A stretch of DNA of 56,937 bases, from NCBI GenBank assembly GCA_946182825.1, contig CAMGZH010000016.1:1-56937 (forward strand), given 5' to 3'. Source of the stretch: an uncultured Lachnospiraceae bacterium. Lineage in GTDB: Bacteria; Bacillota; Clostridia; Lachnospirales; Lachnospiraceae. Below the pieces are notes generated by a model. The model worked only from the letters and a program-made list of their open reading frames with translations, did no database searches and was not told the origin of the DNA. This document shows positions 8,554 through 47,062 of this stretch, piece by piece (within the stretch, counting starts at the first letter, position 1; each line of letters opens with the position of its first letter). Made by a program: the position numbers and the translations under genes.

Positions 8554-8555
8554 AC

Positions 8556-9545: not shown

Positions 9546-9619
9546 TTTAAATCCTTCCTCTGACATTCAACTAAGTTCAAGTCTCGCTCACGAAACTTTG
9601 CATGGAATTGCCGAAGGAA

Positions 9620-9928
9620 TCAAGCCAGTAATTCAACCTTAAGGGAAACAAGTGTCCGTGATGTCTCTTCCTGTGAAGAACGGACAATAGAAAAAATCTT
9701 CGCAAACAACAACAGGATTCCCGCCACCGCAAAAACCGGCACGATCTGAATCGTTGTCATGGTCTGCCATGTTAAATGAATCTCCTCACAGACCGGGCAG
9801 TTCTCCCCGGAACATCTGTGATGGAGATTGGTAGAGATATAAAAAAGAGATGTTATGACCATCAAAAGAAACAGACAACTCACCAGTCCCGCAAACACTT
9901 TATCTTTGCGTGATCCAGACACAAACAT
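9620..9928 (-). CDS. Small two-helix membrane protein with His/Cys metal-binding-like loop
   Basis: About 102 residues, first gene of the zinc operon. A hydrophobic helix near 12-33 is followed by an outer loop HHRCSGENCPVCEEIH and a second helix near 60-82. The paired His plus C-x5-C-x2-C pattern between two membrane helices looks like an extracytoplasmic zinc site, which fits its place before znuA. I do not know a named family; similar small proteins appear beside metal-uptake operons in Clostridia, stated from general recollection. Start ATG 9928 is preceded by AAAGGAGAAGCGG. An upstream in-frame start would add 12 charged residues. Confidence 0.7.
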   Translation of the reverse strand: MFVSGSRKDKVFAGLVSCLFLLMVITSLFYISTNLHHRCSGENCPVCEEIHLTWQTMTTIQIVPVFAVAGILLLFAKIFSIVRSSQEETSRTLVSLKVELLA

Positions 9929-9953
9929 CCGCTTCTCCTTTCTCTCCTGATCA

Positions 9954-10004
9954 TAACTACCCAAGTTAGTTACACATAATAACCCAGAAGCATACCGCTG
10001 TCAA
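9954..10004 (-). promoter_or_regulatory. Zinc operon promoter with palindromic operator
   Basis: On the minus strand, -35 TTGACA (9999-10004) and -10 TATTAT (9976-9981) are 17 bp apart. Just downstream, across the expected transcription start, is an inverted repeat TAACTA-N7-TAGTTA (9954-9972), and GTTA/TAAC half sites also flank the -10. A metal-responsive repressor (Zur, AdcR or DtxR-type) binding here would block initiation. Which repressor is unknown; a DtxR-type regulator is encoded at 14270. Confidence 0.75.
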
Positions 10005-10023
10005 CTGCGATATGCTTCCCCTT

Positions 10024-10040
10024 CCGGCGGAATCCGCCGG
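10024..10040 (-). terminator. GC-rich stem-loop after the diguanylate cyclase gene
   Basis: CCGGCGGA (10024-10031) and TCCGCCGG (10033-10040) form a tight stem right after the cyclase stop on the minus strand. No T-run follows, so it is at best a pause or an mRNA-end-protecting structure. Confidence 0.4.
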
Positions 10041-10043
10041 CCA

Positions 10044-11840
10044 TCAGACCATTCTGACCTGATTCTTGCCGTGCTCCTTGGAGTAATAGAGGTTCTCATC
10101 CACTCTGGAGGTAAACTCCGTAAGAAGCTCTCCCTGCCGATACTCGGTGACACCAAAACTCATGGTGACCGTTTCATGCTGCTCAAAGATAAAATTGCGC
10201 ACCTCGTCGCAGATCCTCTCTGCGATCTCACCAGCCCTTCTCAGACTGGTCCTCGGTAAAAGAATCATAAATTCCTCGCCGCCCCAACGGCCCACAACGC
10301 CTTCTGCCGCTTCGTCCGTCAGTACATCCTTCATGATCTCGGCAACACAGCTTAAGACCAGGTCTCCTTCCTGGTGGGAATAGGTATCATTGATCATCTT
10401 AAAATCATCGATATCCCCCATGATGATGGAGCAGACCGATCCCTTGGTCTGGTTACAGATCGACACCATACGCTTTAACCGTCGCTCGATCTCGCCGCGG
10501 TTATAGATCCTGGTCAGATCGTCCACGGTTGCCCGCACCAGAAGCTCCTGCAGACGATTGTTGGCATCCATCATCTCCTCGGTCATGGTATTGATAAAAC
10601 TTGCCAGTCTGGAAGCCAGGGAAATAACGCCATCGGATGAATCAAAGCCTTCCTTCTTCTGTGTCCCCGCCTCCTCCGGGTCTTCCAGTACGGCCCTGAC
10701 ATTTCCTTCACGAAGAGCGATCACAACACAGGCCAGATTATTCAGCACTGTCTTACCGCGATACCGAAGGATCTCTCCCAGCGCGCAGTAACCCAGCATA
10801 TCCGTAATATCCGCCAATTCCTTGATATCGTTGTCCGCTTCACTTCCCCAGAACAGCTTCCGTCCCAGGCAGTTAAACACCATGATACCATCCGGCTGAA
10901 ACCGCCGCATGCACTTGGCTCCCTTGATCAGCTCGCTGCGGATCGCATTGGGATCCCCGTAACTCATACGCAGCAAACTGTTCTCCGGAACATGGGCAGA
11001 CATTATGATGGCTCCATTCTCGTTGCTGCTCTTGGCATGTCGAAGATAGGTATTGCCGTTCGGCGTCGTAACCTGAAACGGAAATTCCAGCGCATTATAG
11101 AAAAAATTCTTATCGTTCGGGATATGAAGATAGTGATTATACACGTCAAATGCCGGCTCATGATCCAACTCATACAAAACATCCTCTGAAGAACTGGTCA
11201 CATGGATCGGGAATCCAATGGGGCGCCAGCCATTGATCCGGGTAGTCTTAATGTGAAGATTCTCCCCACTGTAGACCACAATGGCAACATTATCGGATGA
11301 AGGGCTCTCTGCATGCGTAAAAGAAACCGGCGTATGAGCCTCGTCTCCCACTGCAATTCCGCCAAACACCTCGATCTCTTCCGGAAAACTGTCCACCGTC
11401 TCAGCGATCTCTAAGAACTCGTCGTGTGTTACCGCAGAAAGCACCTCGATCCCGCGTACATTCTCGATCTTGTTCAACTCATAGCGTACGATCTGCTTCC
11501 CCTGTCCGATGGCAATCCTGTGAAACGGATAGTCATAGACATGGATCTGTGTCGTGGGGTCATCAAAAATAGACAGGGTGATCACCACGTCCTCATCGGT
11601 AATATGTCCGTAATAGATCTGTCCGGAAGAACTGCAGCCCACAAAAGGAACCATGGGTAATTCCGTCTCAAAAAGCTTACGTATGATCTCATAAGAAAAA
11701 CGGTTGCTCTGATCTCCATCAAAACGAATGAAGACATGCGCAACGGCAGCACATGGCTTCTCCTCTATGATTCCCCGCCAACGTCTGAAAGTGCTGGCGA
11801 GATCCCGATTGTTCGTATACGTCGTCTGAAGCTGTCTCAT
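10044..11840 (-). CDS. FIST sensor domain-GGDEF diguanylate cyclase
   Basis: A 598-residue cytoplasmic protein. The N-terminal FIST domain (about 25-235) and FIST_C domain (about 240-375) form a proposed small-ligand sensor; after a linker a GGDEF domain (about 430-598) follows with active-site GGEEF at 520-524 in VVGRWGGEEFMILLP. The usual inhibitory RxxD site five residues before GGEEF is absent, so product inhibition through that site is unlikely. It should make cyclic di-GMP in response to the FIST ligand, often supposed to be an amino acid or similar metabolite. A -10-like TATAAT lies at 11883-11888 on the minus strand, next to the terminator of the upstream gene. No c-di-GMP effector is visible in the window. 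Confidence 0.92.
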   Translation of the reverse strand: MRQLQTTYTNNRDLASTFRRWRGIIEEKPCAAVAHVFIRFDGDQSNRFSYEIIRKLFETELPMVPFVGCSSSGQIYYGHITDEDVVITLSIFDDPTTQIHVYDYPFHRIAIGQGKQIVRYELNKIENVRGIEVLSAVTHDEFLEIAETVDSFPEEIEVFGGIAVGDEAHTPVSFTHAESPSSDNVAIVVYSGENLHIKTTRINGWRPIGFPIHVTSSSEDVLYELDHEPAFDVYNHYLHIPNDKNFFYNALEFPFQVTTPNGNTYLRHAKSSNENGAIIMSAHVPENSLLRMSYGDPNAIRSELIKGAKCMRRFQPDGIMVFNCLGRKLFWGSEADNDIKELADITDMLGYCALGEILRYRGKTVLNNLACVVIALREGNVRAVLEDPEEAGTQKKEGFDSSDGVISLASRLASFINTMTEEMMDANNRLQELLVRATVDDLTRIYNRGEIERRLKRMVSICNQTKGSVCSIIMGDIDDFKMINDTYSHQEGDLVLSCVAEIMKDVLTDEAAEGVVGRWGGEEFMILLPRTSLRRAGEIAERICDEVRNFIFEQHETVTMSFGVTEYRQGELLTEFTSRVDENLYYSKEHGKNQVRMV

Positions 11841-11889
11841 CTACCAACGGCCCTTCCATATATGTACTCAACTGTTGCACTTATTATAC

Positions 11890-11951
11890 AACACCTTTTT
11901 TAAAAAGAAAACGCAAGAGCCACGCACGAAGTCGTACTTCGTGCGTGGCTC
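11890..11951 (-). terminator. Strong rho-independent terminator of the NifX-FKBP gene
   Basis: A perfect 15-bp stem, arms 11917-11931 and 11937-11951 with a 5-base loop, followed on the minus strand by a T-rich stretch (TTTTCTTTTT) down to about 11897. It sits just after the stop at 11977. Confidence 0.9.
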
Positions 11952-11976
11952 CATGGAATGATATTGATTCAAATGA

Positions 11977-12879
11977 TTAGTCTTCTACTGAAACAAGCTC
12001 GATCTTAAAGTTCAATGCCTTACCTGCAAGATCATGGTTGGCATCAAAGGTGATGTCCGTCTCGGTCTTATCCTTAACCACAACCGGGAACTGCTGTCCG
12101 TATGGGTTGGAAAGAGCAACACGGTCGCCGATGGACAGCTCTTCTACCCCCGGCATCTGAGACATTGGAACGGTAAAGATCGCTTCCGGATCCACTTCCC
12201 CGTATGCCTCAGCCGGCTCTAAATGAACGTTGACGGTCTGCCCGACTTCCATATCCACAACGGCCTTGTCGAAACCGGCGATCATCATACCGACACCGGC
12301 AACGAACTCCAATGGCTCCCCACGGTCATAGGAAGAATCGAACTGGCTTCCGTCGTCTAAGGTTCCGCAATAGTGCGCCTTAACGGTCTTGCCTGCATTC
12401 TTGCCGTCGAAGATGACCGTAAGCTCGTGGGAACCACAGCCGCCACATCCGCCGCAGCCGCTTCCTTCCTCTTCATGATGACCGCAACCGCCGCAGCCGC
12501 CATCCTCGTGATGTCCACAGCCGCCTTCGCCGTGCTCATGCTCATGATCATGATGATCACAGTTCACACCGGCAGACTCCAGTGTACCGGCAAGATAAGC
12601 CTCCACTGCAGCGTCCGTCTCTCCCTGTGCTCCGGAAAAGACCTCAATGCCTGCCTCGGAAAGGGCTGCCTGAGCGCCACCGCCAAGACCACCGCAGATC
12701 AGAACAGATACACCCTGCTGTGCAAGAACGTCTGCCAAAGCCTCGTGTCCTACGCCCTGTGGATCAAGGATCTCGCTGGAAACCACCTTGTTATCACGAA
12801 CGTCATATAACTTGAACGCCTTACTCTTACCAAAATGCTGGAATACTTTTCCGTCTTCGTATGTTACTGCAATCTTCAT
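11977..12879 (-). CDS. NifX/NifB-like domain-His/Cys/Gly linker-SlyD-type FKBP fusion
   Basis: A 300-residue fusion. Residues 1-95 resemble the dinitrogenase iron-molybdenum cofactor (NifX/NafY) domain (MKIAVTYEDGKVFQHFGKS, LICGGLGGGAQ). Residues about 107-150 are a metal-binding linker rich in His, Cys and Gly (CDHHDHEHEHGEGG, CGGCGHHEEEGSGCGG). Residues about 152-300 are a SlyD-type FKBP peptidyl-prolyl isomerase with its IF chaperone insert (FDSSYDRGEPLEFVAG, PAEAYGEVDPEA, NHDLAGKALNF). SlyD proteins carry a metal-binding tail; here that segment sits between two domains. Role inferred: metallochaperone or metal-responsive foldase. Start ATG 12879 has GAGGT upstream. It is a single-gene unit with its own promoter and terminator. 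Confidence 0.88.
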   Translation of the reverse strand: MKIAVTYEDGKVFQHFGKSKAFKLYDVRDNKVVSSEILDPQGVGHEALADVLAQQGVSVLICGGLGGGAQAALSEAGIEVFSGAQGETDAAVEAYLAGTLESAGVNCDHHDHEHEHGEGGCGHHEDGGCGGCGHHEEEGSGCGGCGGCGSHELTVIFDGKNAGKTVKAHYCGTLDDGSQFDSSYDRGEPLEFVAGVGMMIAGFDKAVVDMEVGQTVNVHLEPAEAYGEVDPEAIFTVPMSQMPGVEELSIGDRVALSNPYGQQFPVVVKDKTETDITFDANHDLAGKALNFKIELVSVED

Positions 12880-12935
12880 GAAATATACCTCATTGAATTT
12901 GTTTTTTTCTACTGTTAAAATGAGCCCAGAGTTGC

Positions 12936-12965
12936 ATTATATAGTATGAAAGTATGCACAGTCAA
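12936..12965 (-). promoter_or_regulatory. Promoter of the NifX-FKBP gene
   Basis: Minus-strand TTGACT (12960-12965), 18-bp spacer, TATAAT (12936-12941), about 55 bp before the start codon. Confidence 0.7.
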
Positions 12966-12971
12966 TCTTAA

Positions 12972-13316
12972 AACCATCAGGAGATCCTTGACCTTTACCT
13001 GATAAGGGAAGGGGACGAATATGCCGTCCCCATGGAAGCCGGCGAGATCCTCAAGTATTTCTGGGGACACCGGGACTTTGAAGGGATCCTAAACTTCCAC
13101 AACCATCCCAGCGGCTGGTGCCGGGAAAGCAAGCGGGATGTCTCCTTCAATGCTCAGCTGCGGGAAGCGGTGCACCGGCAGCTGGGCAAGCAATACCTTG
13201 GAGGCTATATCGTGACCGACACCGAGCATGTAAGGATCCACGATCATCTCCACCAATACCGGCAGGTCTTCCTCCGGGACTATCTGGACTGGAAGGATCC
13301 AGACCCTATCCGTTAA
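12972..13316 (+). pseudogene. 5'-truncated RadC-type JAB/JAMM domain fragment
   Basis: An open frame runs from just after a TAA (12969-12971) to 13316 without an upstream start; the only ATG, at 13032, lacks a ribosome site and falls mid-domain. The protein contains FHNHPSGWCRESKRD, matching the RadC metal site HxHPSG-x4-S-x2-D, followed by LGKQYLGGYIVTD. RadC proteins are about 200 residues or more, so the N-terminal part is missing. The frame begins almost exactly at the promoter of the divergent NifX-FKBP gene, suggesting the 5' half was lost by rearrangement. Its last 11 bases overlap the convergent phosphatase gene. Confidence 0.65.
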
Positions 13317-14103
13317 ACACCGGCGAGAAAGCCGCATATCCGGACAAAGGAACCCCTGCCGCATACAGATGCGCTGTGTCTCCTAACGCCTGAATGCGGA
13401 AATGCGCCTGGTTATGAAGACGTTTCTCCGTGTTCACAACGGTAAGACCCGTTGGCGGAATACAGATGCCGTGCCAGATGGCCACCGGCGAGATCCCGAG
13501 AAGATGACTGAGGATGAGACCGGTCACCCCGAGATGACAAAAGATCACAATGGTCTTCTCGTCATCCTCATCCCGCACCACATAGTTGCTGGTTCCGTGA
13601 AGCATGATATCCTCACACTCAGCAGGGTTCACATGACCGCTGGGATCCACAAAGTCAAAATAATCCCCGTGACGGATGTAACCATACTCAGCCACCAGAT
13701 CATCGATCCCCTTGAATACCATCTTTGCCTTCTGCTCAATCTCAGGATACTGTGCGTAAAACTTTGCGTGCATCCATTCCTTTGGATCCATCATCACAGG
13801 ATCCGCTGTGTAATCCTGCGGCATAAGATCCCAGGCACAGTGCTCCTCATGGGTGGAAGGATCCAGAATGCGAGGGTCGAATTCCCGCAGCCAGTCATAC
13901 TCCACTGCTGTCTGTCCCAGCACTTCCAGCGTCGGAGCCGCTGTTTCCTTCGCGCGTCCCATGGTGGACACATAACACTTATCTACCTTCCAGTTCTTCT
14001 CCCGAACGCGGGCAGCAAGAGCCGCCGCCTCACGCTGGCCCTGAGGCGTCAGTGTGTCGGTGGAATAGTCAGGTTCTCCATGTCTAACAAAAATAATTCT
14101 CAT
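13306..14103 (-). CDS. Histidine phosphatase family protein
   Basis: A 265-residue member of the phosphoglycerate-mutase-like histidine phosphatase superfamily. The catalytic RHG is at 7-9 (IIFVRHGEPDY), TPQGQREAAAL follows, the second conserved Arg is in STMGRAKETA, and the second histidine is in IVIFCHLGVTG. It is longer than the usual 190-220 residues, with an insert in the middle (about 100-185). Substrate is unknown; many clostridial relatives are annotated loosely as phosphoglycerate mutases, and that specific reaction is not supported here. Monocistronic by context. Confidence 0.85.
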   Translation of the reverse strand: MRIIFVRHGEPDYSTDTLTPQGQREAAALAARVREKNWKVDKCYVSTMGRAKETAAPTLEVLGQTAVEYDWLREFDPRILDPSTHEEHCAWDLMPQDYTADPVMMDPKEWMHAKFYAQYPEIEQKAKMVFKGIDDLVAEYGYIRHGDYFDFVDPSGHVNPAECEDIMLHGTSNYVVRDEDDEKTIVIFCHLGVTGLILSHLLGISPVAIWHGICIPPTGLTVVNTEKRLHNQAHFRIQALGDTAHLYAAGVPLSGYAAFSPVFNG

Positions 14104-14210
14104 GATCTTATCCTGCCTTTTCTATTTCTATCAAATTCATGTCTCACACAACTTCCAACAGTATACCAAATGTTCCATTTTGACAAAACACCTGTATTCC
14201 GCAGGCAAGG

Positions 14211-14238
14211 TTGAACTAAACCGCTGATGTGTTATAAT
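14211..14238 (+). promoter_or_regulatory. Promoter of the DtxR-type regulator and folC
   Basis: TTGAAC (14211-14216), 16-bp spacer, TATAAT (14233-14238). A related 13-base element occurs at 14208-14220 (AGGTTGAACTAAA) and 14258-14270 (AGGTGAAACTAAA), one over the -35 and one over the start codon, which could be coincidence or an autoregulatory site. Confidence 0.65.
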
Positions 14239-14269
14239 TATCAAAAAGAAATTAGAAAGGTGAAACTAA

Positions 14270-14644
14270 ATGAAAGTTCAACAGTCCTCAGAGGATTACC
14301 TGGAAACAATTTTAGTCTTAAGCAAGCGTCTGCCGGTTGTCCGCGCAGTTGATATAGCCGAAGAAACGAACCACAAGAACTCCAGTATCAGCGTTGCCAT
14401 GAAGAAGCTTCGCACCTTGGGGCTTATCACTGTAACCGATGCCGGTTTTATCTACCTGACAGAAGTTGGCGCCAAAATCGCCAACAACATCTACGAGCGT
14501 CACACACTTTTTACCAAGTGGCTCATTGAACTGGGCGTCAACCCGGCTACGGCAGAGGAGGATGCCTGCCGGATCGAGCACGTGATCAGCGAAGAGAGTT
14601 TTCTTGCAATGAAAAAACACATGACAGAATTCGAGGAAAAATGA
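14270..14644 (+). CDS. DtxR/MntR-family metal-dependent regulator, short form
   Basis: A 124-residue regulator with an N-terminal winged helix (SSEDYLETILVL, VRAVDIAEETNHKNSSISVAMKKL) and the metal-binding dimerisation domain (ERHTLFTKWLIELG, CRIEHVISEES). It lacks the SH3-like third domain, like MntR. Residues matching the MntR/IdeR metal sites (E and H in ERH, E-x2-C, EH) are present; a Cys in the DACRIEH segment favours iron or zinc-type readout over MntR's manganese pattern, but that is inference. RBS AAAGGTG. It overlaps folC by 4 bases, an unexpected pairing of metal sensing with folate synthesis. The zinc operon at 5570-9928 is an obvious candidate target. Confidence 0.88.
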   Translation: MKVQQSSEDYLETILVLSKRLPVVRAVDIAEETNHKNSSISVAMKKLRTLGLITVTDAGFIYLTEVGAKIANNIYERHTLFTKWLIELGVNPATAEEDACRIEHVISEESFLAMKKHMTEFEEK

Positions 14645-15978
14645 CCTATAACGAGTGTTTACATTATCTACGACACCTGCCGGCCTTCACACCGGCAGGT
14701 GTTTTATCAGGAAAGATCACCTATGATCTGAATGCCATCACCGAACTGTGCGCGCGGCTGGGAGATCCCCAGAAGAAGCTTCGCTTCGTCCACATAACCG
14801 GAACCAACGGCAAGGGCTCCACTGCTGCCTTTTTGCGGTCCATCCTTACCACCGCCGGATTAAAGACCGGAAGCTTTACTTCTCCGGAACTCACGGATTT
14901 TGAGGAACAGGCCCGTATCGACGGCGTCATGATCTCAAAGGATGCCGTTGCAAGACACCTTTCTTCCGTCATCGCCTCTTCCGAGGACATGCGCCGGGAA
15001 GGCCGGTATTTTCCATCCCCCTTTGAAATGACCCTGGCCATGGCTTTCTTATATTTTGCCGAGGAGAACTGCGACATCGTGATCCTTGAAGTCGGCATGG
15101 GGGGAAGGACGGATGCCACCAACGTCATTGACGCACCCCTCCTGGCTCTTTTTGCACGGATCAGTCTGGATCACACCCAGATTCTGGGGAATACCATCGC
15201 CGACATCGCCCGGGAGAAGGCCGGCATCATCAAGCCCGGTTGCACCGTGCTGACCCTGCCACAGGAGGATGAGGCGAAGGCTGAACTGACCCAGGTCTGC
15301 CACGACCTGCAGGTTCCCATGGAGACCGTGGAGCCCCCTACCAGACTCATCAGCCGCAGCATGGAAGGACAGAGCTTTTACCTGCCCCTTCTGGATGCTC
15401 CGGTGACGATTCCCCTCCTTGGTACCTACCAGATGGAAAACGCTGCACTGGCAGCGCAGGCGGCATCGCACGTCCTTGGAAAATGCGGATATCATACATT
15501 ATGTAATATAAATGATATGATAATTGAAGGTCTTGCTCAGACCTCCTGGCCCTGCCGGTTTGAGCGCATCGCAAAGGATCCCTGTTTTCTGGTGGACGGC
15601 GGTCACAATGTCCAGGGCGCCAGGGTCCTCGCCGACAGCATCCGGGCCTACTTTCCGGATCGGAAGGTCACCTTCATCTTCGGGGTTCTAAAAGACAAGG
15701 AACATCAGAAGATCATCGAGATCGTCGGCCCCCGGGCGGATGAATTTTTTACGGTCGCACCGGATTCTCCCCGTGCTCTCCCCGCCGAAGAACTGGCTCG
15801 GGAGCTACAGGATCTGGGATACCGGGCCTGTGCCTGTGACAGCTATGAAACTGCCCTCTCTCTTGCCCTGAAAAAGGCTCAAAAAAAGCCGGACACCATT
15901 CTGGTGGCCTTTGGCTCCCTGTATTTTGTGGGAAAGATTCGTAGCCTTGCACAAAAAGCCCTTTACAGCCCCGAATAA
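14641..15978 (+). CDS. folC: Bifunctional dihydrofolate synthase/folylpolyglutamate synthase FolC
   Basis: A 445-residue Mur-ligase-family enzyme that adds glutamate to dihydropteroate and to folates. Landmarks are the P-loop HITGTNGKGSTAAF, FTSPEL, EVGMGGRTDATN, LDHTQILGNTIADIAREKAGI and the C-terminal domain entry VDGGHNVQGARVL. It starts inside the regulator gene (ATGA overlap), so both are translated together. A short AT-rich patch at about 15485-15525, with codons unlike the rest of the gene, encodes TLCNINDMIIEG and may mark a variable loop. A promoter for the riboswitch transcript lies in its last codons. Confidence 0.95.
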   Translation: MTYNECLHYLRHLPAFTPAGVLSGKITYDLNAITELCARLGDPQKKLRFVHITGTNGKGSTAAFLRSILTTAGLKTGSFTSPELTDFEEQARIDGVMISKDAVARHLSSVIASSEDMRREGRYFPSPFEMTLAMAFLYFAEENCDIVILEVGMGGRTDATNVIDAPLLALFARISLDHTQILGNTIADIAREKAGIIKPGCTVLTLPQEDEAKAELTQVCHDLQVPMETVEPPTRLISRSMEGQSFYLPLLDAPVTIPLLGTYQMENAALAAQAASHVLGKCGYHTLCNINDMIIEGLAQTSWPCRFERIAKDPCFLVDGGHNVQGARVLADSIRAYFPDRKVTFIFGVLKDKEHQKIIEIVGPRADEFFTVAPDSPRALPAEELARELQDLGYRACACDSYETALSLALKKAQKKPDTILVAFGSLYFVGKIRSLAQKALYSPE

Positions 15979-15990
15979 AAGGGCTATAGT
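15962..15990 (+). promoter_or_regulatory. Promoter for the riboswitch-folE transcript
   Basis: TTTACA (15962-15967), 17-bp spacer, TATAGT (15985-15990), overlapping the folC stop. Transcription would begin about 20 bp before the THF riboswitch. Confidence 0.7.
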
Positions 15991-16017
15991 GTCAGACAGA
16001 CAAAGTAATACATAAGA

Positions 16018-16137
16018 ACGCAGAGTAGGAATGAAAGCGTCGGGAGGATATCCTCCGGTAGTGCCTGTTGAACAGGGAGTTGTCAACGGGACGAATAGCA
16101 TAAGCTTACGATTTTGATTCCGCATCCCGCTGCTACA
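16018..16137 (+). promoter_or_regulatory. Tetrahydrofolate (THF) riboswitch, class I
   Basis: The leader shows the conserved THF-aptamer blocks in order: CGCAGAGTAGGAAT, GCGT, a hairpin (CGGGAGGATATCCTCCGG), GTGCCTG-x-CAGGGAGTTGTCAACG, GGGACGAA, and the closing GATTCCGCATCCCGCTGC. GGAAT pairs with ATTCC and the outer GCAG with CTGC. Class I THF aptamers bind reduced folates and repress folate genes. Here it is followed directly by a terminator and folE. Confidence 0.93.
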
Positions 16138-16158
16138 TAAGGACAAGGATATTGATCG

Positions 16159-16198
16159 ACTCCTGTGTGGTATGGATATGCTGCGCAGGAGTTTTTTT
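16159..16198 (+). terminator. Riboswitch-controlled terminator before folE
   Basis: ACTCCTG (16159-16165) pairs with CAGGAGT (16186-16192), followed by seven Ts (16192-16198). It ends 15 bases before the folE start, so folate binding is expected to stop transcription of the downstream operon. Confidence 0.85.
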
Positions 16199-16213
16199 AT
16201 TCAGGAGATGACT

Positions 16214-16774
16214 ATGGATACTCAGAAAATCGAAACTGCCATTACCATGCTTCTTGAAGCTGTGGGAGAAGATCCAAACCGCGAAGGACTGAAAGAGACA
16301 CCGGCCCGGGTTGCCCGGATGTATCAGGAACTTCTCGGCGGTATGCAAAAGGACGGATCCGAACATTTATCCAAGGTCTTTTCTGCCCCGGACAGTGAGA
16401 TCGTTGTGGAGAAGAACATTGAATTCTACTCTCTTTGCGAGCACCACATGCTGCCCTTCTTTGGCAACGTTCACATTGCCTACATTCCCAATGGCAAGGT
16501 GGTGGGCCTCAGCAAAATGGGCCGGCTCGTGGAGGTTTACGCCCGCCGGCTTCAGATCCAGGAACGTATGACAGGACAGATCGCCGATGAGCTCGAAAAG
16601 GCTCTGGATGCCAAGGGTGTCCTTGTGGTGGTGGAAGCAGAGCATCTCTGCATGACCATGCGAGGAATCAAAAAGCGCGGCGCCAAGACGGTTTCCTATG
16701 CCAGCCGGGGTGTTTTCCGTGAAGACAGCGCCCGGAAGCAGGAGGCTTTGGCTTTGATGGGAGTTACCGGATGA
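16214..16774 (+). CDS. folE: GTP cyclohydrolase I FolE
   Basis: A 186-residue enzyme that converts GTP to 7,8-dihydroneopterin triphosphate, first step of folate synthesis. The catalytic zinc ligands are C75 and H78 ([12 protein letters not shown]) and C146 ([11 protein letters not shown]); the GTP-binding run around [17 protein letters not shown] is intact. Start ATG 16214 is six bases after AGGAG; an ATG at 16208 is too close to it. The gene leads an operon with the HD protein (4-base overlap), folP and folB-folK, controlled by the THF riboswitch. Confidence 0.96.
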
Positions 16775-17298
16775 GCGACCGCTACCAGAAGATCCTGACC
16801 GATCCCCTCTTCCTCTCAGAACTGGAGAAAATCCGCTTCTACGAGAAGGAGCGAATCTACTGTGGCCATGACATTCACCATCTCCTGGATGTTGCCAGGG
16901 TCACCTACATTTCTGTCCTGGAGCAGAGACAGACCGACCCTCTGGCCTTTGGCGGACAGGATCTCTACGAACTGAAAGACATCATCTACGCCGCGGCCCT
17001 TCTTCACGATATCGGCCGGGGCAGGGAATACGAAGATCAAACGCCTCATCACGAGGCCTCCTCTGCTCTTGCTTCCCGGATTCTGACGGCCTGCGGTTTT
17101 CCCGCGGAGCAGATTCACCAGATCCGGGCTTTGATCTTGGAACATCGGGGACAAAGGATCACCCCGGCCACCAATGGCCCTGACCTGACCCAGCTTTTTA
17201 AGGAAGCAGACAAAACCTGCCGGCTTTGTTTTATCTGTCCCGCAGCTGACAGCTGTAAGTGGGACGAATCTACAAAAAATCAAACCGTCCGTCGATAA
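16771..17298 (+). CDS. HD-domain phosphohydrolase in the folate operon
   Basis: A 175-residue HD-superfamily protein with metal-ligand pattern H36/H37 ([11 protein letters not shown]), H79-D80 ([10 protein letters not shown]), and H93/H94 (TPHHEASS), then ALILEHRG. The C-terminus has a Cys-rich segment ([16 protein letters not shown]). HD proteins hydrolyse phosphate esters of nucleotides and related compounds. It sits between folE and folP with an overlap to folE, so it is a candidate for the dihydroneopterin triphosphate dephosphorylation step, for which no other enzyme is visible here. That role is inference; a nucleotide house-cleaning role is the alternative. Confidence 0.85.
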
Positions 17299-17340
17299 GC
17301 ATGGACAACATTGACAACATGGGAAAAGGGAGAAAACGTA

Positions 17341-18222
17341 ATGAACATCGGCTCAAGAAATTTTGATTTTACAAACGGCACTTCTTACATCATGGGAATC
17401 TTAAATATCACACCGGATTCCTTCTCAGACGGCGGATCCTACGCCGATCTGGACGCAGTCATCGACAAGGCTGCCCAGATGGAGCGAGACGGAGTGGACA
17501 TCTTTGACGTTGGGGGAGAATCCACAAGACCGGGCTATACCCTGATTTCCTGCGACGAAGAGCTTTCCCGTGTACTTCCGGTCATTGAAGCCTTAAAGGC
17601 AAGATTTGATATTCCAATCTCTGTCGACACCTATAAATACCAGGTCGCTGAACGCGTCCTTGCAGAAGGCGCCGATATGATCAACGATATCTGGGGACTT
17701 GACTATCCGGAAGATCCCCAGCACAACATGGCCCGAGTGGTTGCCGCTTCCAACAAGCCGGTCTGCATCATGCACAACCGCGGAGACATCATGTCTTCTG
17801 CCACCAAGGGTTCTCCTTATCTGAATCTGTCTTCCGATGACCCGAAATACGGCTTTCGGAACCAGCTTCTGGATGACCTGAAAGCCCAGCTGGACATTGC
17901 CTTCGCCGCCGGCATTTCCCGGGAGAATATCATGATCGATCCGGGTGTCGGCTTCGCCAAGGATCTTACCGGCAATGTTTTAGCCATGGCCTATCTTGAA
18001 GATCTAAAGGCCTTTGATCTTCCGATCCTCCTTGGTATCTCAAGAAAGTCCATCATTGGAAAATCCCTGGATCTTCCGGTGGATCAGCGTGAAGAGGCAA
18101 CGGTTGCTTTAAATGTACTCGGTCGCGCCGCCGGCTGCCAGATCTTCCGTGTCCACAATGTTCGCGCAAATAAGCGGGCTTTAGCTATGACCGATGTGAT
18201 TCGCAAAGAAATGGAAGCTTGA
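17341..18222 (+). CDS. folP: Dihydropteroate synthase FolP
   Basis: A 293-residue TIM-barrel enzyme joining 4-aminobenzoate to 6-hydroxymethyl-dihydropterin pyrophosphate; the target of sulfonamides. Signature segments are GILNITPDSFSDGG near the N-terminus, VGGESTRPG, MINDIWG, MIDPGVGFAKD and GISRKSIIG. Start 17341 is used because AAAGGGAG lies nine bases upstream and the protein then starts as in relatives; an ATG ten codons earlier is unlikely. It follows the HD gene by about 40 bp. Confidence 0.96.
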   Translation: MNIGSRNFDFTNGTSYIMGILNITPDSFSDGGSYADLDAVIDKAAQMERDGVDIFDVGGESTRPGYTLISCDEELSRVLPVIEALKARFDIPISVDTYKYQVAERVLAEGADMINDIWGLDYPEDPQHNMARVVAASNKPVCIMHNRGDIMSSATKGSPYLNLSSDDPKYGFRNQLLDDLKAQLDIAFAAGISRENIMIDPGVGFAKDLTGNVLAMAYLEDLKAFDLPILLGISRKSIIGKSLDLPVDQREEATVALNVLGRAAGCQIFRVHNVRANKRALAMTDVIRKEMEA

Positions 18223-18252
18223 CCTTTGACCGGGTCCTGAATGGAGAACACT

Positions 18253-19095
18253 ATGACAGATTCAATTACCATCAACGAACTTGAATGCTTCGGCTATCAC
18301 GGCGTTCTTGCCGAAGAGAAAAAGCTGGGGCAAAAATTCCTTATTACCATGGAATTATCCGTAGATACCTCTCTGGCTGGCGAGACGGATCAATGCGCCG
18401 ATACCGTGGACTATAGCCTGGTATGTACCAAGGTAAAACATCTGGTAGAGACTGAAGTCTACGATCTCATCGAGACCCTTGCCGAGCAGATTGCAAAGCT
18501 TGTTCTCCACACCTTTTCATCCGTTCAGGCAATCACCGTTACCGTGAAAAAACCTTGGGCTCCCATCATGACCTCCGTGGATACGGTATCTGTCCGCATC
18601 ACCCGGGGCTGGCACCGAATCTATTTAGGCGTCGGCTCCAACATCGGAGACTCCAAAGGTACAATTGAAAAGGCCGCCCACCTTCTTTCTCTGAACAAGG
18701 ACATCCGCAATCTTCGTCTGACCTCTCTGATTTCTACTAAACCTTACGGAGTAAAGGATCAGCCGGACTTTGTCAACGGCGCCATCTATCTTGAGACCCT
18801 TCTTGAACCGAAGGCTCTGCTTCGCGTCACCTCCTCCATCGAAAAGGAAATGGGAAGAGAACGCAAGCAACACTGGGGACCTAGAACTCTGGATCTGGAT
18901 ATTCTCTTCTACGACGACCGGATCAGTGACGATCCCCTGCTTCTGCTTCCCCATCCGGAGATCGCAAAGCGGGATTTTGTCCTGATACCGCTGGCAGAGC
19001 TGAATCCCTACCTGATCCATCCCGTCTACCATAAACAAGTGGTGGAACTGCTGGAAGAACTGAAAAAGAAAGAGTCCTACGAGAGGACGCTGTAA
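18253..19095 (+). CDS. folB-folK: FolB-FolK fusion (dihydroneopterin aldolase/HPPK)
   Basis: A 280-residue bifunctional enzyme. The FolB half (about 1-118) has the aldolase pattern ELECFGYHGVLAEEK and KKPWAPI; it cleaves dihydroneopterin. The FolK half (about 120-280) has GVGSNIGDS, TKPYGVKDQPDFVN, RERKQHWGPRTLDLDIL and LPHPEIAKRDF; it transfers pyrophosphate from ATP to 6-hydroxymethyl-dihydropterin. The fusion gives consecutive steps in one chain, as in several Firmicutes. Start 18253 has GGAG upstream; the ATG four codons earlier lacks a site. It closes the folate operon; the first 64-bp hairpin repeat 35 bp downstream may help end the transcript. Confidence 0.95.
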   Translation: MTDSITINELECFGYHGVLAEEKKLGQKFLITMELSVDTSLAGETDQCADTVDYSLVCTKVKHLVETEVYDLIETLAEQIAKLVLHTFSSVQAITVTVKKPWAPIMTSVDTVSVRITRGWHRIYLGVGSNIGDSKGTIEKAAHLLSLNKDIRNLRLTSLISTKPYGVKDQPDFVNGAIYLETLLEPKALLRVTSSIEKEMGRERKQHWGPRTLDLDILFYDDRISDDPLLLLPHPEIAKRDFVLIPLAELNPYLIHPVYHKQVVELLEELKKKESYERTL

Positions 19096-19129
19096 TTCCC
19101 TCTTCGGAGAGATCGGCTTTCTCTTATTT

Positions 19130-39217: not shown

Positions 39218-40513
39218 TTATTCTTGTCTGAGCATCCGTGCTTCAATGGCGTCAATATCATACTCCAGGTCAGAATCCATGCGCTTTCTGCCCTTTGCGG
39301 TCTTCTTCGTCTTAACAGAAGAGCTCTTATAGTCGTTCTTAAGAGCTGCCACCATCCAGGCTACCAGGTTATCCACATCCTGTGACTTTGACATTTCATA
39401 CTTCTCGTTAATATAATCCGGATCGAAATTTCCGGCTTCTGCTATGGACTTGATACCGTCAAGATCCAGATCCGGCGGAAGGGTCCTCGCAATGGAAAGC
39501 ACCACATTCATCTGCTCGGCCGTCAGCTCGATCTTACCCGTGGTCTTCGCCTTCTTCGGTGCCTTCTTCACAACCGGTACCACCTCGGCATCCACCACAT
39601 CAATGGGAAGTTCTGTCTGCTCTCCCTGGATAAATCCGGCATTCAGATGCTTGTCCTTATGAAGCTGAACGTAGAAGATCAGACCGTAGACACGGCCGCC
39701 CTTTCCACCCTTCTTAGGCTTATATTCCACTGCCATATCCGTGATCTTATTGATCTCTTTGACCGCAACATCGACCACATGTCTCTTAAAGTCACCCCAA
39801 TCGGCGTACATCTTCTCCGGAGAAGCCTCCACCGCCCGATCGTAATCCGGAAAATCCGGGTTCTCCAGCAGAATATTCCGGACCGAATCAAGGTTCGCAT
39901 TGACAATTCCCATCAAAAGCCGCAGCTCCGACAACTGGAAGGTGATCTCGAAGAACTCGTCTGCCCGCTCCTCGCCCTTCCGGTAATATGCCTTGGATCG
40001 CAGCAATTCGTACAAACGGAAGGAATAAACATTCTTAAACTGGAGCATGGTAACCAGAGACAGGGTCGTATAATTCCCGCGGATCCCATCAATATATTCC
40101 TGCAGATCCTGGTTGAATTTGATCCTAAAGGTTCCGTTCTCGTAAGAGGCACGGGTAACGACCGCTATATAATCAAACTTATTGGACTTCGGATCCGTCC
40201 ATCCAACCGAACGGTTGGTCAGATTCTTACTGATACGATCCAGCTTCTTGTAGATGGAGTGGTTATCCTCCGCCCCCAGGGCGATCTTAAGATCCTTGGC
40301 CTTGAATTTACAGATAATGCTTCCCTGATCGATCTCATAATCCTTCTGTCGGATCTTACTCAACGCAATGGCTATGATCTTATTCTCCTGAATTGAGGAT
40401 TTGTACTTGGCACCGATCAGAAAGTTCGACTTCTGATAATCGCCATTACGATCTCTGTTTTTGTCATAACCGGGCTCTGCTACCACCAGAACCTTATCCT
40501 GTTCTTTCTTCAC
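39218..40513 (-). CDS. repB: Rep_3-family replication initiator (RepB)
   Basis: A 431-residue initiator of the Rep_3 (RepB/RepA) superfamily. Two winged-helix modules are expected: WH1 around 30-160 (NKIIAIALSKIRQKD, KAKDLKIALG, TDPKSNKFDYIAVVTRASYENG) and WH2 from about 165 (YSFRLYELLRSKAYYR, FEITFQLSELRLLMG, WGDFKRHVVDVAVKEINKITDM). A C-terminal extension of about 120 residues, rich in Lys (VKKAPKKAKTTGK, KTKKTAKGRKRMD), is longer than in typical small-plasmid Reps. GTG start with GAGGAGAG upstream. It is divergent from and adjacent to the iteron region, to which it should bind. With ParA at 45711 it marks this as a separately replicating element. Confidence 0.9.
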   Translation of the reverse strand: MKKEQDKVLVVAEPGYDKNRDRNGDYQKSNFLIGAKYKSSIQENKIIAIALSKIRQKDYEIDQGSIICKFKAKDLKIALGAEDNHSIYKKLDRISKNLTNRSVGWTDPKSNKFDYIAVVTRASYENGTFRIKFNQDLQEYIDGIRGNYTTLSLVTMLQFKNVYSFRLYELLRSKAYYRKGEERADEFFEITFQLSELRLLMGIVNANLDSVRNILLENPDFPDYDRAVEASPEKMYADWGDFKRHVVDVAVKEINKITDMAVEYKPKKGGKGGRVYGLIFYVQLHKDKHLNAGFIQGEQTELPIDVVDAEVVPVVKKAPKKAKTTGKIELTAEQMNVVLSIARTLPPDLDLDGIKSIAEAGNFDPDYINEKYEMSKSQDVDNLVAWMVAALKNDYKSSSVKTKKTAKGRKRMDSDLEYDIDAIEARMLRQE

Positions 40514-40624: not shown

Positions 40625-41400
40625 GTTAGCCGAATTTTTCCATGATATGCCGTAACAGGCGCCTAATTCTGGAACTTATGGAAAAATTCGGACAATCCTA
40701 CATGTGAAAGAATATCACACTACCCTTGTCTTTACAATACTTGAAGTTGATTTTAGCCGATTTTTTCCATGATATCAATATACGGCTCAAATCGGGTACT
40801 TATGGAAAAAATCGGCTGATTTTTTTCTGTCGCTCCGGCTTTTGTGAGCGATTAACTTCTGGAAAAAATAGGACAACCCATGCAAATACTGTCCTAATTT
40901 TTCCAGAAGTTCCAAGATTCCATTTCACTTTTCCGGCAGATTACCCTCATTTTTCCATGATTTCCTCCAATCCCCCGTCTTTATCCAGGAAAAATTAGGA
41001 CAATCACACGCAATCTCCGTTCTCCCACTGCGAAGTTCTGGAATAATTAGGACAATAGAGGCTGACTTCTGGAAAAAATAGGATAATTTCCCCTTATAAC
41101 TGTCCTAATTTTTCCATACAAATGGGGAGATATCCTTGTTTTTCCGTTAGTTTACCGCATTTTTCCAGACCTTTGTCCTAATTCTTCCATACCTATTGCC
41201 CGTTTTTTTCCGTTTCTTTGCCGTTTTTTACCAGACCTTTATCCGCATTTTTCCAGTTCTTTGTCCTTCTTTTTCCATGAAAAAAGTGCGCAACCTCTGT
41301 AAAATCAAGGGTTTGCGCACTTCCTAAACTAAATATAAGTTAAAACTAGTTAATAAAATATAACAACAACAAGAGCTGTTGTCCTAAATTTTCCGGAAGT
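40625..41400. other. Iteron-rich replication origin region
   Basis: About ten copies of a 20-22-bp motif of type TTCTGGAAAAAATAGGACAA occur in both orientations, for example at 40674-40695, 40855-40876, 40890-40910 (inverted), 40985-41003, 41034-41054, 41065-41086, 41100-41117 (inverted), 41172-41192 (inverted) and 41379-41400 (inverted). Near repB two variants form long inverted pairs: 40631-40643 with 40678-40690 and 40755-40770 with 40802-40817. An AT-rich block (41322-41376) could be the unwinding element; TTATCCGCA near 41239 resembles a DnaA box. No gene lies here. Confidence 0.85.
41284..41322. repeat. Inverted repeat beside the AT-rich block of the origin
   Basis: AAGTGCGCAA (41284-41293) and TTGCGCACTT (41313-41322) are perfect complements around 19 bases, between the iterons and the AT-rich block. 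It could be a terminator-like boundary or an initiator-binding palindrome. Confidence 0.65.
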
Positions 41401-41432
41401 ATTGGAAAGATCCGGGAAATAGCAAGGATACA

Positions 41433-42060: not shown

Positions 42061-42168
42061 CCTTCCTGTCTGAGGACTGCTGTACTGCTCTTCTATTATT
42101 TGCTTTCCCCGGAAATTTGTCCATTCTATTTTTTTCAGGGAATTTTTGCCAGAATGTGGAAAATGATT

Positions 42169-42231: not shown

Positions 42232-42882
42232 ATGCCTAAGTATTCAGAGTTTCTAATTGATCTGGATGGTACGATCACGGATTCCGGTGACGCCATCATG
42301 TCTTCCGCTCAGTACGCCCTCACCGAGCTTGGCTATGAAGAGCAGCCCCGGGAGCTTCTGCGTAAGTTTGTGGGCCCATCTCTGATGGATTCCTACCGTA
42401 ATCTTATGGGAATGTCCGAGGAGCAGGCCAAGGAGGCGGTACGACTGTACCGTAAGGTCTATGAAGCCGGGAAAATGTTCGAGGTCACCCTCTACCCCGG
42501 TGTGGTGGATATTTTGAAGAAAAATAAGGAAATGGGCCTTCGCAACGTGCTTGTGACATCCAAGCCTCATGTTTTTGCAGCTCAAATCCTGGAAAAATTA
42601 GGACTCGATCAGTATTTTGACTATCAGACCGGACCGGAAATGAAGGATCCCTCTTCTGAGAAGGTTCGTTTGATCCGAAAGGCCATGGAGGATCTTTCCC
42701 TTGCCCCGGAACAATGTGTAATGATCGGGGACACGAAGTTTGATATCATCGGTGCCAACAAGGCAGGCATCGACTCCGTTGGTGTGACCTACGGCTACGG
42801 AACACGGGACGAACTGGTTGCCAACAGGGCAACCTATATAGTAGATGACCTTTTTGCATGGTTTCAGGAGCAGATCTGGTAG
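42232..42882 (+). CDS. HAD hydrolase, phosphoglycolate phosphatase-like
   Basis: A 216-residue HAD subfamily IA phosphatase. Motif I is LIDLDGTITDSG, motif II VTSKPH, the conserved Lys lies around SEKVRLIRKA, and motif IV is MIGDTKFDIIGA. The alpha-helical cap follows motif I. Gph-like enzymes remove phosphoglycolate or other small phosphates; exact substrate is unknown. An iteron-like 15-mer (TGGAAAAATTAGGAC) sits inside the gene near 42589-42604. Confidence 0.88.
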   Translation: MPKYSEFLIDLDGTITDSGDAIMSSAQYALTELGYEEQPRELLRKFVGPSLMDSYRNLMGMSEEQAKEAVRLYRKVYEAGKMFEVTLYPGVVDILKKNKEMGLRNVLVTSKPHVFAAQILEKLGLDQYFDYQTGPEMKDPSSEKVRLIRKAMEDLSLAPEQCVMIGDTKFDIIGANKAGIDSVGVTYGYGTRDELVANRATYIVDDLFAWFQEQIW

Positions 42883-44960: not shown

Positions 44961-45532
44961 GGACTGCTGCGACCGGGGTCTGGAAATAGGAAAAGGCCTT
45001 TTTTTACTCATATGCGATAATATATGATAAAATATAATATATAATATATACATCCTACAAATATCATATGAAGATAATATTTTTCCTCATAGTAATGCAG
45101 CGGCTTTCTAAGGATCAGCTTTTATGATGTATATTCTGCGCTACGCCTTTTGCACTGATACTTGCTCCCCTCTTTGATTTTATATGTTAAATATCATACA
45201 AAGATAACACATTTATACTATAAATATCCTATAAACACTTATAATCTATGTATATGAAATAATATAGTATAGAATATATTACATAAGATGATATATAACA
45301 CAATACATAACAACACATGAAATCTGTTATATATTGCAATAGGAATATCCTTTATAGTATAATACATAAGAACTACAGATGGTATAATGTAATGATGGTG
45401 ATATGATTAGAAGAAATACAAAACATCCCACCTAACATGTGCAAAACATATTACATAATATATTACAAAGGAGAATGTATAACATATTATAAAAAGTAAT
45501 ATAGACTCAAGTGGTCATCTCAGGGATGTATT
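44961..45532. other. AT-rich non-coding region upstream of parA
   Basis: About 570 bases with no gene. From 45020 it is extremely AT-rich and full of short alternating ATAT runs and near-repeated TATTACATAA-like words. It resembles centromere or origin-flanking DNA in base composition. Small open frames on both strands have no ribosome sites and low-complexity products. Confidence 0.6.
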
Positions 45533-45710
45533 ACAAAGATAAGATAAAAGTAATACAAAGATAAGATAAAAGTATTATAAAGATGGGTGGATGTATCATA
45601 AAGAATAGGATGAAAATAGGATAAAATGTATTACATATATGGGATAAATATAATACAAGTAACCAAACAGGAAGTAACCAACAGGAAATAACCAACAGGA
45701 AGGGAAGTAA
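45533..45710 (+). repeat. Direct repeats before parA, candidate centromere
   Basis: Two exact-phase 22-bp units (45533-45554 and 45555-45576; ACAAAGATAAGATAAAAGT then AAT or ATT) are followed by degenerate copies (ATAAAGATGGG at 45577, ATAAAGAATAGG near 45598). Closer to parA, TAACCAACAGGAA-like units repeat at about 45660-45705. A ribbon-helix-helix partner binding such iterons would give both partition and autoregulation. Confidence 0.75.
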
Positions 45711-46469
45711 ATGAAAGTAATAGCAATTGCAAACCAAAAGGGTGGTGTCGGCAAGACCACAACCACATGGGAAATTGGATCATGTCTTGCAGCAGAGCAT
45801 AAGAGAGTACTGGTCATCGACCTGGATCAGCAGGCGAACCTGTCAGACTATGTGGATGCCGATCCGAAGAAGGCTACCATCTATGATCTACTGAAGGCAG
45901 ATAATGCGGTGGAGGATGCACTGCAGCACTTGGATGAATTTGATTTTATCGCGGCATCGGAGAAATTATCCAAGGCGGATAAGGAGTTTTCAGCGCCGGA
46001 GGATATCTATCTTCTGAAAAGTTTGCTGGAGTTTGTGGAGAACGACTATGACTATGTGCTGGTTGATAGCAATCCGGCGCGTAATACACTGCTGAATATG
46101 TGCTATATCGCATCGGATTATATTCTGATTCCAACGGAGTGTGATGCCGGATCCATTACCGGAATTGATGCGATTTACGGTGACCTGATGAAATACCGTA
46201 AGCTTAAATGGTCCAATGCCGAGGTTCTTGGACTAATTTTGAATAAGTATGAGAAGACCTCCATGCATACGCTGGCGATTGAGACGCTTGAGGAGAAGGC
46301 AAGCGAGATGGGAAGTGATCCGTTCATTCTGACAGTCCGCAAGAGCATCAAGGCTTCCGAGAGCAAGCTGGCTTTGCAGTCCATGCAGAAGTACAACAAA
46401 TACGGTAATCCTGCGATGGACTATCGTAAGGTGGCAGCGGAGATCATTGAGAGGACACAGGAGGCATAA
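45711..46469 (+). CDS. parA: ParA/Soj-type partition ATPase
   Basis: A 252-residue ParA-family ATPase with the deviant Walker A KGGVGKTT (10-17), Walker A' VLVIDLDQQANLS and Walker B YDYVLVDSNPA. There is no N-terminal helix-turn-helix, so it is of the small, type Ib kind, which pairs with a ribbon-helix-helix centromere-binding partner. That partner follows 2 bases downstream. In the Walker B region Asn replaces the more common Pro-like context (DSNPA), which is acceptable in Soj relatives. GGAAGGGAAG precedes the ATG. Confidence 0.94.
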   Translation: MKVIAIANQKGGVGKTTTTWEIGSCLAAEHKRVLVIDLDQQANLSDYVDADPKKATIYDLLKADNAVEDALQHLDEFDFIAASEKLSKADKEFSAPEDIYLLKSLLEFVENDYDYVLVDSNPARNTLLNMCYIASDYILIPTECDAGSITGIDAIYGDLMKYRKLKWSNAEVLGLILNKYEKTSMHTLAIETLEEKASEMGSDPFILTVRKSIKASESKLALQSMQKYNKYGNPAMDYRKVAAEIIERTQEA

Positions 46470-46471
46470 AG

Positions 46472-47062
46472 ATGGCAAACAACAGTCTTTCTAAGTTACA
46501 GAAGATGCGTGAGATGAATCGGAAACGCTTTGAGGAAAAGGAAGAACTCCGGGAAGAACTCGATAAAAAAGAAGGAAATCTTGTGGATGATCTGGTTCGT
46601 GAGGGGAAATCCTACGAGGAAGTAACCAAGGAAGTGGATCAAAAGACGAAGGCAGCCAAAGAAGCAGAGCGGGCAAAGGAAGCAGTCAAAGGCAAGGAGA
46701 AGGAGCATTCCGAGGCCCAAACAGAAGATAAAATAGAAGATAATACCAAAGATAATATCGAAGGTAATATAAAAGATACTCTAAAAGATAATACAAAAGA
46801 TATTACAAAAAATAATGCAGAAGATGCCGGAATCAAGAAGGATACAGGGGCTCAAAAGGAGACAGACAAGAAAAGTTCACAGGTGGAAAGCTCCATTTCC
46901 GCACGATTTAAGAACAATCGTAAGGAAAAGAAGACGGTCCGCAAGAGCTTTTTGATTAAGGGATCTTACAACGAAAAGCTCAAGGCTCTGGCGGAAGAGC
47001 TGGGAACTTCTGAGAATGACCTGATCAATCAGATGCTTGAAATGATTTTTGATCAGGAATAA
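46472..47062 (+). CDS. Centromere-binding partner with C-terminal ribbon-helix-helix (ParB-like)
   Basis: A 196-residue, highly charged protein. Residues about 5-85 are predicted coiled coil; 86-125 is a low-complexity run of short DN/TK/D repeats (EDNTKDNIEGNIKDTLKDN); the C-terminal 45 residues (KTVRKSFLIKGSYNEKLKALAEELG...) read as a ribbon-helix-helix DNA-binding dimer. Size and place after parA identify it as the partition partner; it is unrelated to chromosomal ParB. The long disordered arm may contact ParA. DNA encoding the low-complexity run itself resembles the upstream centromere-like repeats. Confidence 0.8.
   Translation: MANNSLSKLQKMREMNRKRFEEKEELREELDKKEGNLVDDLVREGKSYEEVTKEVDQKTKAAKEAERAKEAVKGKEKEHSEAQTEDKIEDNTKDNIEGNIKDTLKDNTKDITKNNAEDAGIKKDTGAQKETDKKSSQVESSISARFKNNRKEKKTVRKSFLIKGSYNEKLKALAEELGTSENDLINQMLEMIFDQE

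Follow-up and report, generated by a model that had tools for sequence, protein, structure and literature searches.

The plasmids F (RepE), R6K (pi), pPS10, P1, and RK2 are replicated by initiators with two winged-helix domains, with direct iterons approximately 22 bp apart, an AT-rich block beside the iterons, and further initiator sites at the rep promoter. The locus described here likewise has the initiator type, the direct iterons, and the AT-rich block, and its layout fits initiator sites at a putative rep promoter. The operators of F and P1 use half-iterons, and RctB, the initiator of Vibrio cholerae chromosome 2, is a different initiator from Rep_3. For Rep_3-type plasmids, 2-7 iterons per origin are given in the available text of PMC4980987. 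A Gram-positive Rep_3 initiator with proposed autoregulation is found on the staphylococcal pSK639 (PMC5703833), an 8-kb plasmid with a 287-residue protein, for which the available text of that paper contains no long mixed field. In ori2 of V. cholerae, a minimal origin of direct iterons and an AT-rich block adjoins an inhibitory field, and RctB represses its own promoter, while iteron chromids are placed in the beta- and gammaproteobacteria (PMC6090056, available text). Most of what is known about the restriction of secondary chromosomes to a single round per cell cycle comes from chromosome 2 of Vibrio and the repABC replicons.

Chromids and megaplasmids of Butyrivibrio have been published (PMC2914790, PMC5716241, PMC6249431), and BPc2 of B316, pCY360, pCY186, BhuII of MB2003, pINBov266, and pNP243 belong to the same family as the window. 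A GC-skew switch at repA/parB was reported for pINBov266 (PMC6249431). The word “iteron” occurs 0 times in the available text of these three papers, and literature searches, limited to partly available sources, returned no description of such Lachnospiraceae iteron origins, which may be treated in the paper on the B316 episomes.

The window, i.e., the whole stretch of DNA that was analyzed (56,937 bp), is the entire contig C16 of an assembly of 52 contigs and 2.36 Mb. With a probability of about 0.86, the region upstream of its rep gene is the oriV of a large, low-copy Rep_3 iteron replicon, with melting, bidirectional forks, an iteron regulatory field, and autorepression. In contrast to the 2-7 iterons of known theta plasmids, about 19 occur here over 0.8 kb and in both orientations, and the putative operator consists of full-length iterons in two inverted pairs instead of the half-iterons of F and P1. 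The locus further differs from the classic Rep_3 theta plasmids by the lack of an exact DnaA box and by an extra C-terminal domain of Rep.

Iteron field, promoter region, and initiator

The following features were identified around the origin:
39218..40513, minus strand: rep, Rep_3 initiator of 431 aa with WH1 and WH2 (Pfam Rep3_N 4e-24, Rep3_C 8e-12)
40626..40695: putative operator pair 1, inverted full-length iterons at 40626-40642 (minus) and 40679-40695 (plus), from repeats and word scan
40709..40737, minus strand: putative rep promoter TTGTAA-17-TATTCT with extended -10 TG, from conservation, read by eye
40753..40819: putative operator pair 2, inverted iterons at 40753-40769 (minus) and 40803-40819 (plus), from repeats and word scan
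40860..40905, no strand: inverted pair 3 at 40860-40876 (plus) and 40889-40905 (minus), from repeat search and word scan
40941..41116: mixed-orientation iterons starting at 40941 (minus), 40987 (plus), 41039 (plus), 41070 (plus), and 41100 (minus), from word scan
41130..41277, minus strand: core direct array of seven 17-bp iterons starting at 41130, 41151, 41173, 41196, 41217, 41239, and 41261
41325..41374, no strand: AT-rich putative DNA unwinding element, 16% GC, the lowest 50-bp GC in 40.5-42.3 kb
41379..41419: outer iterons at 41379-41395 (minus, 2 mismatches) and 41403-41419 (plus, 5 mismatches), from word scan
42590..42605, plus strand: iteron core with 1 mismatch within HAD hydrolase coding sequence, at a distance of 1.2 kb from the array

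The initial annotation had named inverted pairs, an AT-rich block, and a Rep_3 gene pointing away from the field, and all of these were recovered by repeat search, GC scan, and Pfam. The first inverted repeat, 40630-40643/40678-40691, has arms of 14 bp that are perfect by reading, and it belongs to I2. In the second, 40755-40770/40802-40817, the arms of 16 nt are 100% identical and separated by 31 nt, and in the third, 40854-40875/40890-40911, the arms of 22 nt are 95% identical and separated by 14 nt. The repeats in both orientations were real as well, while their number, given there as about ten, rose to about 19. The 17-bp word TGGAAAAATTAGGACAA occurred 19 times at ≤5 mismatches within 40625-41420 in both orientations, with 10, 13, and 15 copies at ≤2, ≤3, and ≤4 mismatches, respectively. 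The averages over 60 dinucleotide shuffles were 0, 0.02, 0.12, and 0.78 at ≤2, ≤3, ≤4, and ≤5 mismatches, for a word that was chosen from these very copies.

The word is concentrated beside rep and not scattered over the genome. Its 16-bp core at ≤2 mismatches had 15 matches in 2.36 Mb, of which the 12 on C16 all lie between 40.6 and 42.6 kb (10 inside 40.6-41.4 kb, plus 42040 and 42590). The off-contig matches were single 2-mismatch ones on contigs C10, C13, and C29, compared with 4 matches of a reversed-pattern control, which gives no support to a crtS-like copy anywhere else in the assembly. The core at 42590 is identical at 16 of 16 bases in G402, where its flanks differ, and such an iteron match appeared in 10 of 4000 synonymous reshuffles of the HAD gene.

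A description of the field as unlike simple tandem iterons applies to its mixed inverted part, but a conserved tandem array of seven iterons at 41130-41277 had been missed. Six of these iterons match the word at ≤5 mismatches and the copy at 41217 at 6. The steps of 21, 22, 23, 21, 22, and 22 bp are exactly the same in three species, including the orthologous loci L043 and L044. The AT-rich block adjoins the array, and its sequence is kept in L044 (L043 ends short of the AT block). The direct array and the putative unwinding element thus give an origin with a tandem core plus a long mixed field. Exact DnaA boxes (TTATNCACA) were absent from the origin, and the only one of the window lies inside rep. 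Matches with 1 mismatch occurred at 41239, inside an iteron, and at 42155, and the specificity of the host DnaA may differ from TTATNCACA.

On the rep side, the two iterons of pair 1 are separated by 53 bp in the window and, shorter by one helical turn, by 42 bp in L043 and L044. The internal spacing of pair 2 is 50 bp here, 40 bp in L044, and about 39 bp in L043, while the distance from the inner iteron of one pair to that of the other is 74 bp in all three species. The sequence TTGTAA-17-TGnTATnCT, bracketed by these inner iterons, is kept in the three species (alignments by eye). A plain promoter scan yielded 3 promoters compared with 2.2 expected, i.e., chance level, and near rep on the minus strand it only found 40750-40778, which has an iteron in its spacer, loses its -35 in the orthologues, and keeps its -10 in L043 alone. 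By a separate promoter scorer, the TTGTAA promoter was chosen in L044 and others in L005 and L043. In a second replicon type of the genus, with a different word, TTGACA stands between convergent sites in nine of nine aligned loci, five of which have 9-10 extra bp between site and -35. The two sites are separated by 52-54 bp in four of these loci and by 61-64 bp in another four, and the downstream site of L052 was uncalled.

Because of this layout and the conservation of the pairs around a promoter-like sequence, the inverted pairs nearest rep are best read as an operator for autorepression of rep. The bracketed promoter with two inverted pairs looks like a trait of the window's genus. Inverted pairs beside rep recur in the genus, while much of the family is without them and many loci have sites on one strand only.

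A profile of 17 Reps matched RepE (1rep, 4e-16) and the pi protein of R6K (2nra, 3e-12), and both Rep_3 winged-helix domains were matched in 17 of 17 aligned Reps. Relatives of the window's Rep of any type were found in 11 of 13 genomes of the genus and in 22 of 397 genomes of the family, with the window's own genome counted in both. Orthologous Reps occur in the same genus in L043 (G407, 95% identical) and L044 (G402, 93%). Further relatives are located on pNP243, pCY360, pCY186, and a 243-kb Roseburia plasmid. The only named records matched in the scan with the window's Rep were an uncultured Lachnospiraceae MAG (RUG14892) and Lachnospiraceae bacterium C10, a cultured relative with the orthologue on its contig L062. 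One scan of viral_contigs yielded no relatives.

After WH2, a C-terminal domain of approximately 70 aa (window 39323-39535) with the motif N..GW...AI...Y is kept in Lachnospiraceae Reps. It was aligned in 29 of 33 Reps, is without a Pfam match, and seems duplicated in L019, L021, and L030 (by eye). A DnaD-like nature of this domain was not supported, with probabilities of 2.7 and 0.5% in a profile comparison with two DnaB_2 domains, which found each other at 96.9% as the positive control. The comparison covered the same 29 of 33 Reps, with L022 and L054 (no cutting-pattern match), L012, and L046 left out.

Helical register and GC skew

Iterons were called with a single procedure upstream of 42 Lachnospiraceae rep loci, and 41 were retained after L022 failed motif refinement. 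For the phase test, 29 of these 41 loci were used, leaving out ten near-orthologues as well as L011 and L045, in which the motif calls drifted; some of the 29 are still related to each other. Among 254 gaps of 15-70 bp between neighbors on the same strand, 87% were within a quarter turn of whole turns, compared with 50% expected. The best period was 10.75 bp with V of 0.61, while the null maxima were 0.26 (jitter) and 0.23 (random placement). All 27 loci that contributed at least four gaps in the 15-70-bp range showed a positive register. Among the 87 gaps of 36-70 bp, the proportion in register was 82% (V 0.48, null maximum 0.36), and among the 127 gaps of 36-130 bp it was 71%, with V of 0.32 compared with a null maximum of 0.28, a sign that the register weakens with distance. 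Two iterons that stand half a turn apart no longer bind Rep cooperatively (PMC4980987, available text), which makes selection for this cooperativity a natural reading of the register. Part of it could also have been produced without selection by the duplication of 21-22- and 31-32-bp units.

The GC-skew minimum that the initial annotation had proposed as a check of this site was recovered. In 2-kb bins, negative skew covers approximately the first 42 kb of the contig and positive skew the remainder, with -0.117 and +0.148 in the 15-kb flanks on the rep side and the other side, respectively. The sign changes at the origin, and the cumulative minimum is located 1.7 kb upstream of rep. Twelve Rep_3 loci, including that of the window, had enough flank for the same test. 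Negative skew on the rep side and positive skew on the other was found at ten of these, with the minimum 0.8-2.6 kb upstream of rep, although weakly in G267 (-0.036/+0.044). No flip was present in G232 and G143. The complete circular plasmids in the iteron calls were that of Roseburia 831b, pNP243, pCY360, and pCY186, and the skew was computed for the first two. As indirect evidence, the sign change at the window's origin fits bidirectional replication.

In L017 (G232:C1 3244308-3245411), a Rep_3 gene with iterons lies inside a single contig of 3.37 Mb without a skew flip. This locus is possibly an integrated or inactive replicon.

Replicon identity and cargo

Three further features, downstream of the iteron field, belong to a plasmid-type partition system:
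45009..45660, no strand: AT-rich repeats, putative centromere of the partition system, within 0.65 kb before parA
45711..46469, plus strand: parA (Pfam AAA_31 2e-41), approximately 5 kb from the iteron field
46472..47062, plus strand: ORF directly after parA, by its position a candidate for the centromere-binding protein

The ORF after parA had no Pfam match at 0.001 and no NCBIfam match at 0.1, and an orthologue with 62% identity adjoins parA in G402. Words resembling the AT-rich repeats before parA also appear within its coding sequence at 46720-46810 (by eye).

The proposal of a secondary replicon was supported by several lines of evidence: the skew flip, the clustering of the word beside rep, the location of dnaA on another contig (C6), and ParA with centromere-like repeats 5 kb away, which place plasmid-type replication and partition genes together on C16. 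The end-overlap check found no recurrence of the first and last 25 bp of C16 at the opposite end. The contig has a GC content of 0.483 compared with 0.446-0.487 in six 20-kb samples from other contigs, and its dinucleotide delta* of 29 falls within the range of the samples (11-37), of which C6 alone is known to carry dnaA and the other five were assumed to be chromosomal. The rep side has 41 kb of single-sign skew, so with arms assumed to be approximately equal the replicon would measure at least about 80 kb. The orthologous contig of G402 by itself measures 69.5 kb. The replicon is most likely large, ParA-bearing, and chromosome-like in composition, with a bidirectional iteron origin.

The single aroB of the assembly and its sole stand-alone folP are located on C16, and the only further pterin-binding domain belongs to an 813-aa ORF on contig C3. 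The folate block at 14641-19095 comprises a Mur ligase/folC-like gene, folE, folP, and folBK. Within the genus, folP occurred in 3 of 13 genomes, exactly those with the window's Rep type (G000, G402, and G407). Among the eight genomes at least 90% complete it was present in two and absent from six, while several of the other genomes are incomplete. This distribution makes part of the cargo look accessory and clade-specific, and folate synthesis may travel with the window's replicon type. The suggested origin of a chromid or megaplasmid therefore stood as far as the Rep_3 iteron origin, parA, composition, and aroB are concerned, but not for a strict chromid, against which the folP distribution speaks; “chromid-like” is a fair description.

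In the window, the block of znu and folate genes (7000-19100) is found on the rep side of the origin, but in G402 (G402:C45 3400-17700) it is on the parA side, beside aroB, amounting to an exchange between the two replicon arms.

A second Rep_3 gene with its own word, about TGGCAnAAnnTACT, is located on contig C10 and indicates a second replicon in the same cell. Both Rep types are also present in G402 and G407. In G398 (82% complete, 4% contamination), five Rep_3 genes were found (L045, L054, L056, L057, and L058), the best words of which differ, the call for L045 being unreliable. This suggests several co-resident replicons.

Proposed function and breadth of the design

In the proposed mechanism, Rep monomers would bind the seven direct iterons, two helical turns apart, and the occupied core array would melt the adjoining AT-rich block, from which two forks would depart bidirectionally. 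A regulatory field would be formed by the remaining dozen iterons, which are distributed on either strand over 0.5 kb and are largely in helical register. At the two inverted pairs nearest rep, which flank the putative promoter, Rep would shut off its own gene, probably as a dimer or through a short loop. Together with the scattered sites, these pairs are predicted to titrate Rep and to couple origins, holding the copy number near that of the chromosome.

The inverted pairs could alternatively be RNA hairpins in the rep leader, acting as an attenuator or antisense target instead of as protein sites, as pair 1, with a possible 14-bp stem, is situated downstream of the putative promoter. This reading is improbable given that the stem of pair 1 has one mismatch in the orthologue L043 and two in L044 although the iteron word is preserved in each arm (by eye), that pair 2 lies upstream of the preferred promoter, and that the same word occurs in both orientations far beyond the leader. 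With its stems broken in the orthologues, a hairpin was rejected as the main reading of pair 1. The draft state of the assembly, and the G232 relative with its rep inside a 3.37-Mb contig without skew flip, would be compatible with a decayed or integrated plasmid origin that lies inside the chromosome and is out of use. The clear sign change of the skew, a rep that is intact and 93-95% conserved in two species, the exactly kept spacing, and the location of dnaA elsewhere make this unlikely.

Partition proteins rather than Rep might bind the scattered iterons as a centromere or incompatibility locus. The parA gene is 5 kb from the iterons, and the competition of ParB2 with RctB near the origin in V. 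cholerae (PMC6090056, available text) lends this idea some plausibility. However, the word beside rep differs from one rep type to the next, and the repeats on the parA side (45.0-45.7 kb) are different AT-rich words, so a partition locus is very improbable.

As proposed, this origin would share with ori2 of V. cholerae the logic of a minimal origin, an inhibitory field, and a self-repressing initiator. In ori2, 12-mers are combined with separate 39-mers and 29-mers, while in the window all of these roles would fall to a single word. No crtS-like site was seen, as the word is not above chance elsewhere in the assembly.

A distinct origin class in Lachnospiraceae had also been suggested, of which the recurrence of inverted pairs by rep within the genus was retained. 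A class restricted to Lachnospiraceae is undercut by long mixed fields on large Rep_3 plasmids of other taxa. In a comparison with 41 Lachnospiraceae loci (L027 was too short for it), 12 outside plasmids had a median of 7 sites and a span of 196 bp compared with 10 sites and 703 bp (Mann-Whitney p 0.0015 for the number). Across 19 outside Rep_3 plasmids, picked by hand and thus non-randomly from 447 matching records, the number of sites rose with replicon size (rho 0.52, p 0.02), as did their span (rho 0.55, p 0.015), so that taxon and size are confounded. L125 was left out, as it has the same repM protein as L124. Small outside Rep_3 plasmids mostly had few, compact, direct iterons, while large plasmids of Hymenobacter, Acinetobacter, and Priestia carried 10-13 sites within fields of 0.4-1.0 kb, some of which were of mixed orientation. 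The plasmids of Shewanella (211 kb, 5 sites) and Paraclostridium (109 kb, 7 sites over 144 bp) were exceptions to this trend, and the fit to size is also loose within the family, as L018 on a 485-kb contig had only 7 sites over 315 bp. Extended iteron fields look like a general trait of large Rep_3 replicons.

A tentative extension, which may well not hold, is that large Rep_3 replicons keep a long field of copies of a single iteron word, in register and in either orientation, which assemble with Rep into one looped body that senses copy number and represses rep, a task for which V. cholerae chromosome 2 employs three types of sites. The field would lengthen as the replicon grows, and the two co-resident types of the genus would share the design with different words. 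The large Rep_3 replicons of Lachnospiraceae, often with two types per assembly in the genus, provide a naturally occurring set of origins that follow one plan but differ in their words. The interest of this origin lies in an architecture that is conserved, quantitatively regular, and easy to test, with the helical-register rule and the promoter bracket being directly testable. The iteron word could help to assign unbinned contigs to their replicons and to construct vectors for this group of bacteria.

A layout that differs from the rest of the family was observed in L021 (G039) and less clearly in L030, where iterons form inverted doublets with an offset of 23-24 bp, repeated every 52-53 bp in part of L021.
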